From Aquirufa aurantiipilula (GTDB lineage Bacteria; Bacteroidota; Bacteroidia; Cytophagales; Spirosomataceae), in the NCBI RefSeq assembly GCF_019923745.1, contig NZ_JAANOG010000003.1, positions 186,001 to 250,000 of the forward strand: 64,000 nucleotides of DNA, in the 5' to 3' direction. The notes under the pieces were generated by a model. The model saw nothing but the letters and a program-made list of their open reading frames with translations. It was not told the origin of the DNA and made no database searches. Shown in pieces: positions 936 through 51,303 of this stretch (positions are counted from its first letter, which is position 1; each line of letters opens with the position of its first letter). Made by a program: the position numbers and the translations under genes.

Positions 936-970
936 TAGATTTGACAACCTTTCAAAGGTTGTCAAATCTA
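936..970. repeat. Perfect 35-bp palindrome (REP-like) between aroA and the amidohydrolase gene
   Basis: Two 17-nt arms around a single central base form a perfect inverted repeat; the left arm begins TAGATTTGACAACCTT. Each end reads TAGATTTG inward, which matches the Bacteroidota -7 promoter consensus TAnnTTTG on both strands (936-943 plus, 963-970 minus). The minus-strand copy could drive the amidohydrolase gene (ATG at 884). No T-run follows on either strand, so a classical intrinsic terminator is unlikely. It has the same architecture as the two palindromes around the RAYT gene at 47780, but a different sequence. Confidence 0.8.
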
Positions 971-46254: not shown

Positions 46255-47577
46255 TTATGATTTAGCCCAATTTAAACGATCCGATGGATTAAATTTCCAG
46301 GGGGCTTGATTTGTTTCAATGTTTGAAAACATACTATTCCATGCAGCAGGGGCATCCGATTGCTCCATGATTTGATAGCGGCGTAATGCCAAAATGATAT
46401 TTAGGGGGGATAACTCCATGGGACAAGCTTCAACGCATGCCTGACAGGTTGTACAGGCTCTCAATTCTTCCGCAGAAATATAATCGCCTAATAATGATTT
46501 CCCATCTTCTTGCCATTGGCCTTTATTCTTAACCAAACCTTGCCCAACTTCTTCCAAACGGTCACGAGTATCCATCATAATCTTTCGAGGAGATAGTGCT
46601 CGACCTGTTTGATTGGCAGGACACTGTTCTGTACAGCGGCCACATTCGGTACAAGAATAGGCATCTAGGGCATTTTTCCAGGTTAAGTCCATCACATCTT
46701 TTGCTCCAAAACGTAATTGTTCAGGGGTAGTGGCATTGGCTTCAACGGGTTGACCTAACATCAATTTTACTTCATGGGTGACGGATGGCATATTGCCCAT
46801 TTTACTTGAAGGTTCAAGACTAGAAAAGTAAGCTGCAGGAAATGCAAAGAAAATATGTAGGTGCTTGGAATATGTGACATAAAGGGCAAATCCCAATATT
46901 CCGATGATGTGAAACCACCAAGCTACCCTTTCCAGTGTCAATAATACAGGTGTGGAAAGCTGGGTTAAAAAGGGCATTACATGCTGCGAAACTAAAAATG
47001 AACCAACAGGCTCAAAATGAGCTACTTGCCTCTCTTGCAGAATGGCATCACTTGCATTCATGGTCCATAGAGCTAACATGAGGATACATTCAATCGCCAA
47101 AATGGTGTAAGCATCTTGAATCGGGAAACCTTTCAATTCCCGATGAGAATCGGATCGTAGTCGCTGTACATGAATCACCCCTCTTCTTAAAAAAAATACA
47201 ATACAGGCCAAAAAGACTCCCAGAGATAGTAGTTCAAAAAAGTTGAGCAAAAAGGGATAAAGCTCTCCCAAGAATGGGGCAAAAACACGATGAGTACCTA
47301 AAATCCCATCAATGACAATTTCCAAAATCTCAACATTGATTAATACGAATCCTATGTAAATCAAAAAGTGAAAAATGCCGACCAAGGGTTTATGGAACAT
47401 TTTTTTCTGGCCAAATGCCAAAAGAATGACCCTTTTCCAACGTTCACTAGGGTGATCATTCAGTTCCATGGGTTTGGATAATCGAATGCTAGCTAGTATA
47501 AGTTTAAATCGTTGCGTTACCAAATAGCCCAACCCGACTAGTACTAAAATAAAAAGTACTTGGAGAAAAATATGCAT
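46255..47577 (-). CDS. Membrane (Fe-S) protein, NarI-like/HdrC-like
   Basis: A 440-residue integral protein. The N-terminal half has five or six membrane helices of the respiratory cytochrome b (NarI/DsrM-like) type; the C-terminal half has two 4Fe-4S motifs, CTECGRCTEQCP and CTTCQACVEACP. It probably exchanges electrons with the quinone pool and with the CCG protein encoded in the same operon. The frame is open to 47622, but the ATG at 47577 starts at the first membrane helix, and the longer start would lie inside a palindrome at 47612-47644. Confidence 0.85.
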   Translation of the reverse strand: MHIFLQVLFILVLVGLGYLVTQRFKLILASIRLSKPMELNDHPSERWKRVILLAFGQKKMFHKPLVGIFHFLIYIGFVLINVEILEIVIDGILGTHRVFAPFLGELYPFLLNFFELLSLGVFLACIVFFLRRGVIHVQRLRSDSHRELKGFPIQDAYTILAIECILMLALWTMNASDAILQERQVAHFEPVGSFLVSQHVMPFLTQLSTPVLLTLERVAWWFHIIGILGFALYVTYSKHLHIFFAFPAAYFSSLEPSSKMGNMPSVTHEVKLMLGQPVEANATTPEQLRFGAKDVMDLTWKNALDAYSCTECGRCTEQCPANQTGRALSPRKIMMDTRDRLEEVGQGLVKNKGQWQEDGKSLLGDYISAEELRACTTCQACVEACPMELSPLNIILALRRYQIMEQSDAPAAWNSMFSNIETNQAPWKFNPSDRLNWAKS

Positions 47578-47611
47578 GATTGATGAGTGTTTTGCTGAAT
47601 CTTTTTCCCTT

Positions 47612-47644
47612 AACGCTGTCAAGGTTTAAAACCTTGACAGCGTT
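47612..47644. repeat. Left REP-like palindrome of the RAYT module
   Basis: A 33-bp inverted repeat: arms AACGCTGTCAAGGTT and AACCTTGACAGCGTT (15 nt each, perfect) around TAA. The same arms recur at 48424-48456. It lies 136 bp upstream of the transposase ATG. Confidence 0.9.
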
Positions 47645-47779
47645 GTTGAAATGCCAATAAAGCTAACTTTTTTTAATCAAACTTTTCATCACATTTCTGA
47701 TATTTTTTACCAATTATTTAAGATTCAGTTTTTAACAAAATCAGGAGATTTGTTCCATACATTCTAATAATCACTAATC

Positions 47780-48400
47780 ATGAAAAAAAATACAGAAGCA
47801 ATGGTTCCGGATCAGTTGTACCATGTCTTTAACCGTGGAATAAACCGAACTAAAATTTTTAAAGAATATAGGAACTACCGGTTTTTCCTTAGAAAATATC
47901 AAAAATATATCTGCCCAATTGCTTATACTTATGCTTATTGTCTAATTGGAAACCACTTCCATTTTCTTCTTAGAATTAAACCTGCTCAAGAAATTTTTGA
48001 ATTCAAAAAAATAAAAACAGAACAGAGAGAACATATTGACCTTTCCAAATTAATTGCAAGGCAATTTGGAACATTGTTTAATTGTTATGCGCAGGCATTT
48101 AATAAGACGAATGACCGAACAGGTGGGCTATTTGAAAACCCGTTTCGAAGGATAAAGGTGGAAGATGAAATCTATTTCACTCAGCTTATCAAATATTTGC
48201 ACTTTAACCCCGAAAATCATGGTATTGTTTCTGATTTCAGGCAATACAAAAATTCCTCTTATCATGACATTTCAACCATGAAAAAGAGCTTTGTAGATAA
48301 AAAATCAGTTTTGGAATATTTTGGAGGAATCGAAGAATTCAAACATTTTCATACTTCCAGAGTGGATGAAAAACACATTATCAATTTATTGTTAGAATAA
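47780..48400 (+). CDS. REP-associated tyrosine transposase (RAYT, IS200-like Y1 transposase)
   Basis: A 206-residue single-domain HUH endonuclease. The start DQLYHVFNRGINRTKIF, the metal-binding His59-Phe60-His61 (LIGNHFHFLLRI) and the helix with the presumed catalytic Tyr139 (LIKYLHFNPENHGIV), followed by NSSYHD, match the RAYT family. In characterised members the enzyme cleaves single-stranded REP hairpins. Two 33-bp palindromes with identical arms flank the gene. No tnpB and no target duplication are visible. The coding DNA and the 135 bp before it look more AT-rich than the neighbours. Confidence 0.9.
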   Translation: MKKNTEAMVPDQLYHVFNRGINRTKIFKEYRNYRFFLRKYQKYICPIAYTYAYCLIGNHFHFLLRIKPAQEIFEFKKIKTEQREHIDLSKLIARQFGTLFNCYAQAFNKTNDRTGGLFENPFRRIKVEDEIYFTQLIKYLHFNPENHGIVSDFRQYKNSSYHDISTMKKSFVDKKSVLEYFGGIEEFKHFHTSRVDEKHIINLLLE

Positions 48401-48423
48401 ATTGAAATTCCATTCGTTTTCGC

Positions 48424-48456
48424 AACGCTGTCAAGGTTTCGAACCTTGACAGCGTT
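48424..48456. repeat. Right REP-like palindrome of the RAYT module
   Basis: The same 15-nt arms as at 47612-47644, with TCG as the central triplet in place of TAA. It begins 24 bp after the transposase stop and ends 9 bp before the uvrA stop codon. The outer flanks also look alike in inverted order: TTTTTCCC before the left copy, GGAAAAA after the right copy. Confidence 0.9.
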
Positions 48457-48465
48457 AGGAAAAAT

Positions 48466-51303
48466 CTAAGCCATATTCAACTCCTTCAATAAAAATCTTC
48501 CCGTATGACTTTGCTTCACTCGGGCTACTTCTTCAGGAGTTCCTTCGGCTATTATTTGCCCACCAGCAAGTCCGCCTTCTGGACCTAAATCTATCACATG
48601 GTCAGATACCTTAATGACATCTAAATTATGTTCAATAATCAACACCGTATTGCCGCGATCCACCAATTTTTGGAGCACTTCCAATAATAATTTTACATCT
48701 TGAAAATGTAAACCTGTAGTTGGCTCATCCAGCACATACAAGGTCTTTCCTGTATCTTTTTTAGACAATTCCTCCGCCAATTTCACCCGCTGTGCCTCAC
48801 CTCCAGATAAGGTTGTGGCATGTTGTCCTAAAGTAATATACCCTAAGCCTACCTCCAATAAGGTTTTTACTTTACGGTAAATCTTGGGTTGATGTTCAAA
48901 AAACTCCAATGCTTGCTCCACTGTCATATCCAATACATCGGATATTGACTTGCCTTTAAAGCGAACTTCTAAGGTCTCCCGATTAAATCGTTTGCCTTTG
49001 CATGATTCACATTCAACCAAGACATCCGGCAAAAATTCCATCTCGATTTTCTTCCTACCTGCTCCTTCACAGCTTTCACATCGTCCCCCTTTCACATTGA
49101 AACTAAATCTTCCTGCTTTATAACCTCGAATTTTAGATTCAGGCAACTCACAATACAAGGTTCGAATATCACTATACATATTGGTATAGGTGGCAGGATT
49201 GGAACGAGGTGTCCTACCAATGGGCGATTGATCTACCTCAATCACTTTATCAATCAATTCTAAGCCCTCGATTCCTTTGAAATCTTTAGGATCTCTTTTG
49301 GTTCTGTCGAAATGTTGTTTCAACTTTAGTACAAGCGTATCATGTATCAAAGTTGATTTACCAGAACCTGAAACGCCAGTGACCGAAATCATTTTTCCTA
49401 AAGGAATACTGACCGTCACATGCTTCAAATTATTTCCTGAAGCTCCTATTAATTTAATCTCTTTATCTGTTCCCTTTCTACGCTTTTTCGGTATTTCTAT
49501 GGCTAATTGTCCATTTAAATACTGTGCCGTAGGAGTTTGTAATTTCAAAAACTCAGCCGGTGTACCTTGTCCAACGATGTGACCTCCATGTCTTCCGGCA
49601 CCAGGACCTATGTCCAACAAATAGTCAGACTCCAACATCATGTCTTTATCATGTTCTACTACCAACACACTATTTCCCAAATCCCTCAAATCCTTTAAGG
49701 CATGAATTAATTTTTCATTATCGCGCTGATGTAATCCAATACTTGGCTCATCCATGATGTATAAAACTCCAACAAGTTGCGTTCCAATTTGCGTGGCCAA
49801 ACGAATACGTTGTGCTTCTCCACCTGATAAGCTCTTCATAGGCCGATCAAGGGTCAGGTAATTCAAACCAATTTGAGTCAAAAACCCAATTCGCTTCTGT
49901 ATCTCCTTCAATACTTCTACTCCAATCTGTTGTTGACGATCAGAAAGTCGTAAATACAATCCCTCAAACCAATTTTCCAAGGTCGAAATGTCCATTTGAG
50001 CCAATTCGCCAATATGTTTGTCATCAATTTTGAAACAAAGTGCTTCTTTTTTCAAACGATAACCCTGGCAATCTGGACAAGTCTTCACTTCCAAAAAATC
50101 CTTTAACCAATCTTGCGTTTTCTCTGATCCACTCTCTTGTTGCCTTTTCAAAAAATGGATTATCCCATCATACTTGGTCGTCCATTCCGTGCCCACATAT
50201 TTCTTAGATGGAACAGGTACAGGTTCATCCGTACCATAAAGCATCATTTCAACAGCTTTTCTGGGGAACTTAGCAATGGGTGTTGATAAACCAACTTGGT
50301 AAGGCTTCAATAATACTTCCAATTGCTTAAAAATCCATAAATCCCGGTATTCACCTATTGGAGCTATTGCTCCACGTATAATACTTAATTCAGGATCTGG
50401 AATTACGGATTCCTCCGTAATTTCTTCTACTTGACCTAAACCATTGCAGGTTGGACAAGCCCCATATGGACTATTGAATGAAAAAGTATTTGGGGCAGGT
50501 TCATCGTATGATAAACCCGTCTTGGGATCCATTAAAGTTTGAGAAAAATAATGAAGCTTTTCTTTTTCATCTAAAATGAATACCTGACCCTTGCCTACAT
50601 TCATGGCTGTTTGCAAACTTTGGGAAATCCGAAAACGGTCATCCTCTTTCACCACCAATCGATCCACCACAATCTCAATATCATGCACCTTGAATCGATC
50701 CACTTGCATTTTAGGCTCCAATTCCATAATCTCCCCATCCACCCGCACTTTGGTATATCCCCACTTGGCTATTTGTACAAATAACTCTCTGTAATGCCCT
50801 TTTCTCCCTTTTACTACAGGGGCCAATAACTGTACTTTGCTCCCTTGAAATTGCTGTAAAAGTGTATTGATAATTTGGTCAACCGACTGCTTGACCATTT
50901 TTTCCCCAGAAAGGTAACTATAGGCCTCAGAAGCGCGCGCAAATAGCAAGCGTAAAAAGTCATAAATCTCCGTGGTAGTACCTACGGTAGACCTTGGATT
51001 TTTAGAAGTCGTTTTTTGCTCTATCGAAATTACTGGAGAAAGACCTTCAATCTTGTCTACATCTGGACGCTCCATATTACCCAAAAAGCTTCTGGCATAA
51101 GCCGAAAAACTTTCCATATAACGCCTTTGGCCTTCGGCATAAATGGTATCAAAAGCTAAGCTTGACTTTCCGGAACCGGAGATACCGGTAATAACGACTA
51201 ATTGATTTCTAGGAATTTGAACGTCGATGTTCTTTAAATTATGCTCACGAGCACCTAAAACTTCAATGTGAGAAAACCCTGTTAAATCTTTAGGTGGCTG
51301 CAT
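48466..51303 (-). CDS. uvrA: Excinuclease ABC subunit A
   Basis: UvrA finds bulky DNA lesions and loads UvrB in nucleotide excision repair. The 945-residue protein has two ABC ATPase modules: Walker A GISGSGKSSLAFDTIYAEGQ near residue 38 and GVSGSGKSTLIHDTL near 640, with signatures SLSGGEAQRIRLAT and TLSGGEAQRVKLAEE. Zinc-binding motifs CPTCNGLGQ, CPDCQGYR and CESCEGAG-X20-CESCKG are intact. The gene stands alone between the TonB receptor and the RAYT module. Confidence 0.97.
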   Translation of the reverse strand: MQPPKDLTGFSHIEVLGAREHNLKNIDVQIPRNQLVVITGISGSGKSSLAFDTIYAEGQRRYMESFSAYARSFLGNMERPDVDKIEGLSPVISIEQKTTSKNPRSTVGTTTEIYDFLRLLFARASEAYSYLSGEKMVKQSVDQIINTLLQQFQGSKVQLLAPVVKGRKGHYRELFVQIAKWGYTKVRVDGEIMELEPKMQVDRFKVHDIEIVVDRLVVKEDDRFRISQSLQTAMNVGKGQVFILDEKEKLHYFSQTLMDPKTGLSYDEPAPNTFSFNSPYGACPTCNGLGQVEEITEESVIPDPELSIIRGAIAPIGEYRDLWIFKQLEVLLKPYQVGLSTPIAKFPRKAVEMMLYGTDEPVPVPSKKYVGTEWTTKYDGIIHFLKRQQESGSEKTQDWLKDFLEVKTCPDCQGYRLKKEALCFKIDDKHIGELAQMDISTLENWFEGLYLRLSDRQQQIGVEVLKEIQKRIGFLTQIGLNYLTLDRPMKSLSGGEAQRIRLATQIGTQLVGVLYIMDEPSIGLHQRDNEKLIHALKDLRDLGNSVLVVEHDKDMMLESDYLLDIGPGAGRHGGHIVGQGTPAEFLKLQTPTAQYLNGQLAIEIPKKRRKGTDKEIKLIGASGNNLKHVTVSIPLGKMISVTGVSGSGKSTLIHDTLVLKLKQHFDRTKRDPKDFKGIEGLELIDKVIEVDQSPIGRTPRSNPATYTNMYSDIRTLYCELPESKIRGYKAGRFSFNVKGGRCESCEGAGRKKIEMEFLPDVLVECESCKGKRFNRETLEVRFKGKSISDVLDMTVEQALEFFEHQPKIYRKVKTLLEVGLGYITLGQHATTLSGGEAQRVKLAEELSKKDTGKTLYVLDEPTTGLHFQDVKLLLEVLQKLVDRGNTVLIIEHNLDVIKVSDHVIDLGPEGGLAGGQIIAEGTPEEVARVKQSHTGRFLLKELNMA

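Follow-up and report, generated by a model that had tools for sequence, protein, structure and literature searches.

The role that REPs and RAYTs have for the cell is a long-standing question. RAYTs of E. coli are described as recognising and nicking single-stranded REP hairpins (PMC8266576; PMC3733652). In the best-known cases the REP copies are reported to turn over (PMC8049555), which makes it difficult to detect selection acting on any one copy; for REPINs, an ancestral spread followed by vertical inheritance under selection has been proposed in the same work (PMC8049555). Here, we describe a REP-RAYT system of the freshwater bacterium Aquirufa in which single REP sites can be traced across species at near-saturated synonymous divergence, and in which two RAYT-REP families within one non-pathogenic genome serve as a built-in specificity control. 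REP-RAYT is a known kind of system, and the Aquirufa pair is claimed as a variant of it, not as a new class. Judging from sequence comparisons, it is quite probably a domesticated and vertically kept REP-RAYT pair (REPtron), whose RAYT would act on its own 33-nt palindrome, a repeat that would have spread in the past and would now be used by the cell.

The RAYT1 locus and the closest described systems

The window is the whole stretch of 64,000 nt that was analysed (C34:186001-250000 of the 3.08-Mb genome G000, Aquirufa, Bacteroidota). It holds the gene RAYT1 with a palindrome on either side and, further upstream, a site of a second palindrome family:

937..969, no strand assigned: family-2 REP, variant AGATTTGACAACCTT, conserved here in the five genomes compared
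47612..47644, minus strand: upstream family-1 REP, 33-nt palindrome 15-3-15, centre TAA
47780..48400, plus strand: RAYT1, 206-aa HUH/Y1 protein with NHFH (58-61), Y139 and SS at 159-160
48424..48456, plus strand: downstream family-1 REP, 33-nt palindrome 15-3-15, centre TCG

The preliminary description had placed the RAYT gene between two matching 33-bp palindromes, and their exact positions, the identical arms (AACGCTGTCAAGGTT / AACCTTGACAGCGTT) and the centres TAA and TCG were all confirmed. The upstream palindrome is 135 bp from RAYT1 and the downstream one about 25 bp. By the C...A mark at the palindrome edges (described below), the upstream copy, with T at 47611 and G at 47645, reads in reverse and the downstream copy, with C at 48423 and A at 48457, reads forward; the two are mutually inverted, with the C facing the gene. 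The similarity that had been noticed outside the palindromes in inverted order (TTTTTCCC / GGAAAAA), as possible ends of a mobile unit, is present at this locus as a 42-nt inverted repeat (88%). Over the 49 copies in the genome, however, pairing at positions 2-20 outside the palindrome was not above that of shuffled flanks (lowest p 0.09), which is indicative that the outer similarity is mostly a T-rich/A-rich bias. An Rfam search of window positions 47000-49000 gave no match.

RAYT1 has the tyrosine motif Y139-L-H-F-N-P, and NHFH and Y139 are invariant or near-invariant among 18 aligned RAYTs. Its top curated family was NF047646 (REP-associated tyrosine transposase; E 2.7e-10, 40.3 bits, below the cut-off of 80); Pfam Y1_Tnp (17.1 bits, cut-off 23) and Ribosomal_S21 (19.1 bits) were likewise below cut-off. 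A sequence search of solved structures found no match to RAYT1. For its AlphaFold model (mean pLDDT 70; residues 144-168 under 50), the first PDB match was a structure of E. coli RAYT together with a REP hairpin (4er8; E 4.6e-4, TM 0.43 by query), and the next were IS608 transposases. The motifs, the top family and the fold match agree with the earlier reading of the gene as a RAYT-like HUH/Y1 transposase with HFH and a catalytic Tyr. From this family and fold, RAYT1 would be expected to recognise the single-stranded hairpin that its own 33-nt palindrome forms, and to nick or rejoin the adjoining DNA with Tyr139.

Like TnpA-REP with REP/BIME of E. coli, RAYT1 is a single-copy Y1 HUH gene between inverted palindromes that recur intergenically; in both organisms each RAYT has its own repeat family, and 4er8 is the nearest solved structure. 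Unlike those of E. coli, the Aquirufa REPs are without the GT[AG]G foot, have a fixed length of 33 nt, A...T ends and quasi-palindromic arms, and are mostly single copies at sites common to species. Among the TnpA-Y1 subclasses of Quentin et al. 2018 (PMC6006769), subclass 2.6 of Bacteroidetes is described with REP-like structures that are without GT[AG]G and have copies elsewhere in the genome, a serine motif after the core and a HUH-Tyr distance of about 82; the structures are characterised there as weaker, atypical and detected by hand. RAYT1 shares with it the absence of GT[AG]G, the recurrence of the REPs in the genome, SS after the core and a HUH-Tyr distance of 80, and it may fall within this subclass, although the Aquirufa REPs, unlike the structures so described, are strong 15-bp stems of fixed length. 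With subclass 2.4, also of Bacteroidetes, which is described as allowing NHFH and as carrying REP copies inside the RAYT gene with the frame intact (PMC6006769), RAYT1 shares NHFH, and several relatives' loci have in-frame REPs inside the RAYT gene. Compared by eye with the published descriptions, the motifs of RAYT1 fit neither subclass fully (e.g., F for the conserved W, and Y-L-H-F-NP). The TIRtrons (TIRYT) of Di Nocera et al. 2013, given as inverted repeats around a Y1 gene, some of them palindromic and genome-repeated (PMC3733652), resemble RAYT1 as a Y1 gene between inverted palindromic repeats that recur in the genome; the GGGGWSAS reported for them is not in the 42-nt repeats flanking RAYT1, and the Aquirufa repeat is one short palindrome of fixed length. 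The HUH/Y1 catalytic fold is also that of IS200/IS605, from which RAYT1 differs in having Y...NP and not Y...Q and in being one copy without near-identical copies (RAYT2, described below, is 41% identical).

Pairing of each RAYT with its palindrome and the shape of the repeat

We followed the co-occurrence of gene and palindrome in 99 genomes (G000 and 98 relatives). RAYT1 homologues at 75-87% are present in G005, G016, A. nivalisilvae (G020), A. beregesia (G024) and A. ecclesiirivi (G033), and the family-1 palindrome (<=2 mismatches) is limited to G000 and these five among the 99, at 35-50 places per strand; it occurs in none of the 40 genomes that have only other RAYTs of this kind (0/40). 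Palindromes in relatives lacking the gene, which the preliminary description had named as evidence against a REP-RAYT pair, were not encountered among these genomes. As the six genomes are close relatives, the co-occurrence counts for about one event.

A second and separate pairing is found in the same genome. RAYT2 (contig C44), 41% identical to RAYT1, is flanked on both sides by another 33-nt palindrome (AGATTTGACAACTTT-N3), which is present at 18 places in G000, at 14-19 places in the same six genomes and at 1-3 places in four others. One of these four (G040) has its own RAYT adjoining the family-2 palindrome, a protein only 49% identical to RAYT2. Across 14 RAYTs, the distance between the proteins correlated with that between the arms (Mantel rho 0.40, 5/5000 permutations as high; rho 0.34 and 26/5000 without G005). 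One RAYT relative on an IMG/VR viral contig (L237, IMGVR_UViG_3300028388_004838; 36%) has no 33-nt palindrome in its 3.5-kb locus, and viral carriage was set aside.

To describe the repeat itself, 31 RAYT loci of relatives (the window, L076 and L077-L105), many of them closely related to one another and with about 12 different arms, were scanned within 400 bp for a 15-3-15 palindrome that begins with A, ends with T and has <=2 mismatched pairs. There were 26 loci with such a palindrome, 22 on both sides, with like arms in 22/22, and four on one side (L084, L089, L096, L099), and five without (L088, L090, L091, L094, L095). We then took a fresh set of Bacteroidia loci, the 29 best-scoring matches, one per genome, where 60 of the 296 genomes searched in the class had a match. 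At least one palindrome (<=1 mismatch) was found at 24/29 and none at 5/29; 38/40 of the palindromes start with A and end with T, and like arms were found in 7/7 of the loci palindromic on both sides, which are only 7/29. In 810 kb of G007, taken as a control, 11 palindromes of this kind were counted whatever their ends, which amounts to an expectation of about 0.017 per locus. Some loci have other shapes (e.g., 13-5-13 or 15-6-15 in L240 and L248), and the A...T 33-nt rule is strong, though not general. A shape rule of this kind would permit REP families in Bacteroidia to be found by program and not by hand.

A quasi-palindrome (7-1-7) is also seen within each 15-nt arm. Pairing between positions i and 16-i was found in 61/84 cases over 12 arms (shuffles: mean 22.6, sd 4.0; 0/20000 as high) and in 165/203 cases over 29 fresh-locus arms (shuffles: 57.2, sd 6.4; 0/5000 as high), the arms of both tests being partly related; alternative dyad centres in the arm gave 0.07 to 0.44. 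The 33-mer can therefore be written as 7-1-7-3-7-1-7, and the middle base of the arm is its most variable base. An edge mark, C before and A after the palindrome or in reverse T before and G after, is present in 37/49 family-1 copies, and the bases directly outside are complementary in 5/49, fewer than the shuffle mean of 20.3. Flank logos of the 37 oriented copies hold only C at -1 and A at +1; GT[AG]G is absent from the family-1 33-mer and has no consensus in the flanks either. The length of 33 nt equals 11 codons, and REPs of this length also occur within RAYT genes: the RAYT ORFs of the fresh set (L240-L268) contain 12 palindromes, 12/12 in the same codon phase and 11/12 shortly after the HUH motif, in several cases with arms similar to those outside the gene; others are in L082, L089, L092 and L084 (2 mismatches), and RAYT1 of the window has none. 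We met no account of a fixed 33-nt A...T double-dyad REP in the literature as consulted; the 2.6 REPs in the supplement of PMC6006769 may include 33-nt palindromes.

This symmetry could also be read in another way, namely that a nucleoid or regulatory DNA-binding protein of the host binds the palindromes and that the RAYT genes merely lie between two of them. The four heptads do resemble a double-stranded site for a dimer or tetramer, and the constraint is strong at every compared copy; nevertheless, the arm sequence tracks the identity of the adjoining RAYT across species, and one genome has a separate palindrome family for each of its two RAYTs; we therefore hold this explanation to be highly improbable. 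It is possible, though on the doubtful side, that within the REP-RAYT reading these repeats form a separate Bacteroidia class, with four related heptads and a C...A-like edge mismatch, without the GT[AG]G foot and recognised by their symmetry (perhaps by two RAYT dimers), and that in Aquirufa every copy, most often where convergent genes end, would be a fixed site under selection at which the domesticated RAYT performs a standing task for the chromosome.

Placement of family 1 in the genome

With <=2 mismatches allowed, the RAYT1-REP arm matches the 3.08-Mb genome at 58 places on the forward strand and 57 on the reverse, as against 1 and 5 with the reversed-arm control, so that its recurrence is above chance. 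Palindrome centres were located at 49 places, and there are at least 53 family-1 sites, namely 49 ordinary ones and 4 'inside-out' ones with the two arms swapped, which may still fit because the arms themselves are quasi-palindromic. The 53 listed sites are all outside called ORFs of >=80 aa, except that two of them reach about 10 nt into an ORF end. The many intergenic copies anticipated in the preliminary description are thus there, and the case of only two copies in the genome, which it had set against a REP family, did not arise. The copies are, however, not 'often paired' as it had supposed: most of the listed sites are solitary and only three pairs have a spacing of 168-169 bp, unlike REPINs, of which the usual unit is two inverted REPs.

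Among the 53 listed sites, 30 lie between convergent genes, 17 between tandem and 6 between divergent ones (neighbouring ORFs of >=60 aa). Of the gaps of >=40 bp in a control block of 263 kb with a coding coverage of 0.94 (ORFs of >=80 aa), 17/104 were convergent (16%), so that by gap count the excess has p 3e-11, where the block itself contains 11 REPs and close pairs are non-independent. Such a bias would suit two-way transcription terminators or hairpins of mRNA 3' ends, with the RAYT link as a by-product, and the 15-bp stem would fold well in RNA. This explanation is rather improbable and has little support, as no terminator-like site was found at the RAYT1 locus and a T-rich tract follows the stem directly in only 5/49 copies; moreover, a stem needs pairing and not a fixed sequence, and here the sequence is fixed and RAYT-specific. 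For a REP-RAYT pair in the service of the cell, the bias towards convergent gaps suggests a task at gene 3' ends, and our guess would be one in transcription ends, collisions or supercoiling.

The distribution over the contigs is uneven. The contig with dnaA (C11, 442,895 bp) has 0 of the 53 listed sites (chance 2.7e-4), and C11 together with C44 (265,478 bp), the latter picked post hoc, also has 0 (chance 1e-6). In G024, the dnaA contig (C10) has a single family-1 place among the matches listed, 663 kb from dnaA, and in G020 a copy lies 227 kb from dnaA; the origin region may possibly be avoided by REPs. GC skew in the G007 samples was too noisy for placing the terminus. At L038:2982-3721, two small genes, toxin-antitoxin-like as judged by eye, lie between two REP copies whose flanks are the same, and at L049:3076-4156 (C34:160575-161655) a family-1 REP and a 131-aa IS200-like Y1 gene are about 650 bp apart.

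Conservation of sites between species and mobility

We compared the block C34:100001-362912 with its counterparts in G016, G024, G005 and G033. All 7/7 family-1 sites of this 260-kb block are common to the five genomes. Family 2 has four sites in it in G000, of which that at C34:277023 is missing from G005; one family-2 counterpart lies outside the compared stretches of G016 and one outside those of G033, the latter being found genome-wide. Over ten sites aligned in four or five genomes, the arms were identical in 2712/2760 comparisons (98%), the 3-nt centre in 214/276 and the 30-nt flanks in 3232/5520 (59%, a low value because the comparison is ungapped). The RAYT1 genes of the compared genomes have a DNA identity of 73-85%, dS of ~1.1 or more where NG86 is computable and dN/dS of 0.04-0.07; gene and palindromes are both under constraint. 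In what we consulted of the REP-RAYT literature, we met no account of single REP sites conserved between species at such divergence.

Site-specific variants are often retained: the AACCTT variant and an inside-out copy are found in five genomes (with changed inner arm bases of the latter in G024), and four further variants are kept in G033; two G000 variants are consensus in G033, with both arms changed together. This retention favours selection at each site over copying from one master.

The region between uvrA and the Fe-S gene is the only clear empty site in comparison with G007. There, the two genes are adjacent in the same order and 36 bp apart, without RAYT or palindromes, and in the window 888 bp separate the uvrA stop from the Fe-S ATG at 47577; the empty site that had been looked for in a relative thus exists. 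In G007, whose site is empty, neither a family-1 palindrome nor, at E 1e-8, a RAYT of this kind is present, so that RAYT1 and both palindromes were either gained as a block or lost from G007. For single palindromes, no insertion footprint was resolved against G007 at nine aligned places, where the intergenic DNA is too diverged. In three stretches of G007 (L179, L190, L205), other repeats stand where G000 has REPs (e.g., GATTATAGAGTAGAGA with its inverse).

The empty site, the about 50 copies and the inverted copies around the gene could be taken for a selfish mobile module in which RAYT and REPs are still transposing and copies are recent or turning over. Local copy changes between G033 and G000 would agree with it, namely three copies versus one (L218 vs L071) and two copies with 1.7 kb between them, a REP-cassette-REP arrangement, versus one (L228 vs L060). 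We consider this very unlikely, since there is one RAYT1 per genome carrying it, the sites are shared between species, and the arms have stayed constant at a synonymous divergence close to saturation; over 20 stretches of G033, 34 family-1 sites map to 31 sites of G000 and none is at a wholly new place (0/34). Of the mobile REP-RAYT module first suggested, the REP-RAYT part is supported, by the copies, the match across genomes and the empty site, and present mobility is not, with one RAYT copy at the same place in five genomes.

That the compared copies are almost unchanged in place across species suggests an old mobile-DNA system that is now in the service of the cell. For the domesticated pair, the most likely history is an ancestral spread followed by vertical inheritance under selection. 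In an ancestor of the Aquirufa clade, the RAYT would have spread the palindrome into intergenic DNA; thereafter, gene and palindromes would have been inherited vertically, with every palindrome held near-constant, and for this reason the cell probably uses RAYT and REPs together.

Two of the RAYT1 genomes carry an interrupted gene. RAYT1 of G016 (L080) has an in-frame TAG, yet palindrome counts of 45-47 are retained, which speaks against the domesticated pair, and a RAYT of G005 (G005:C51:155733-156290) has an in-frame TAA with the palindromes still there. Lastly, some gene cassettes that have a REP at either end in one species are missing from another or shorter there (L228:316-2102 vs L060:3010; L220:14685-16535 vs L074:3022-4009), differences that look as if REPs had acted as recombination sites.
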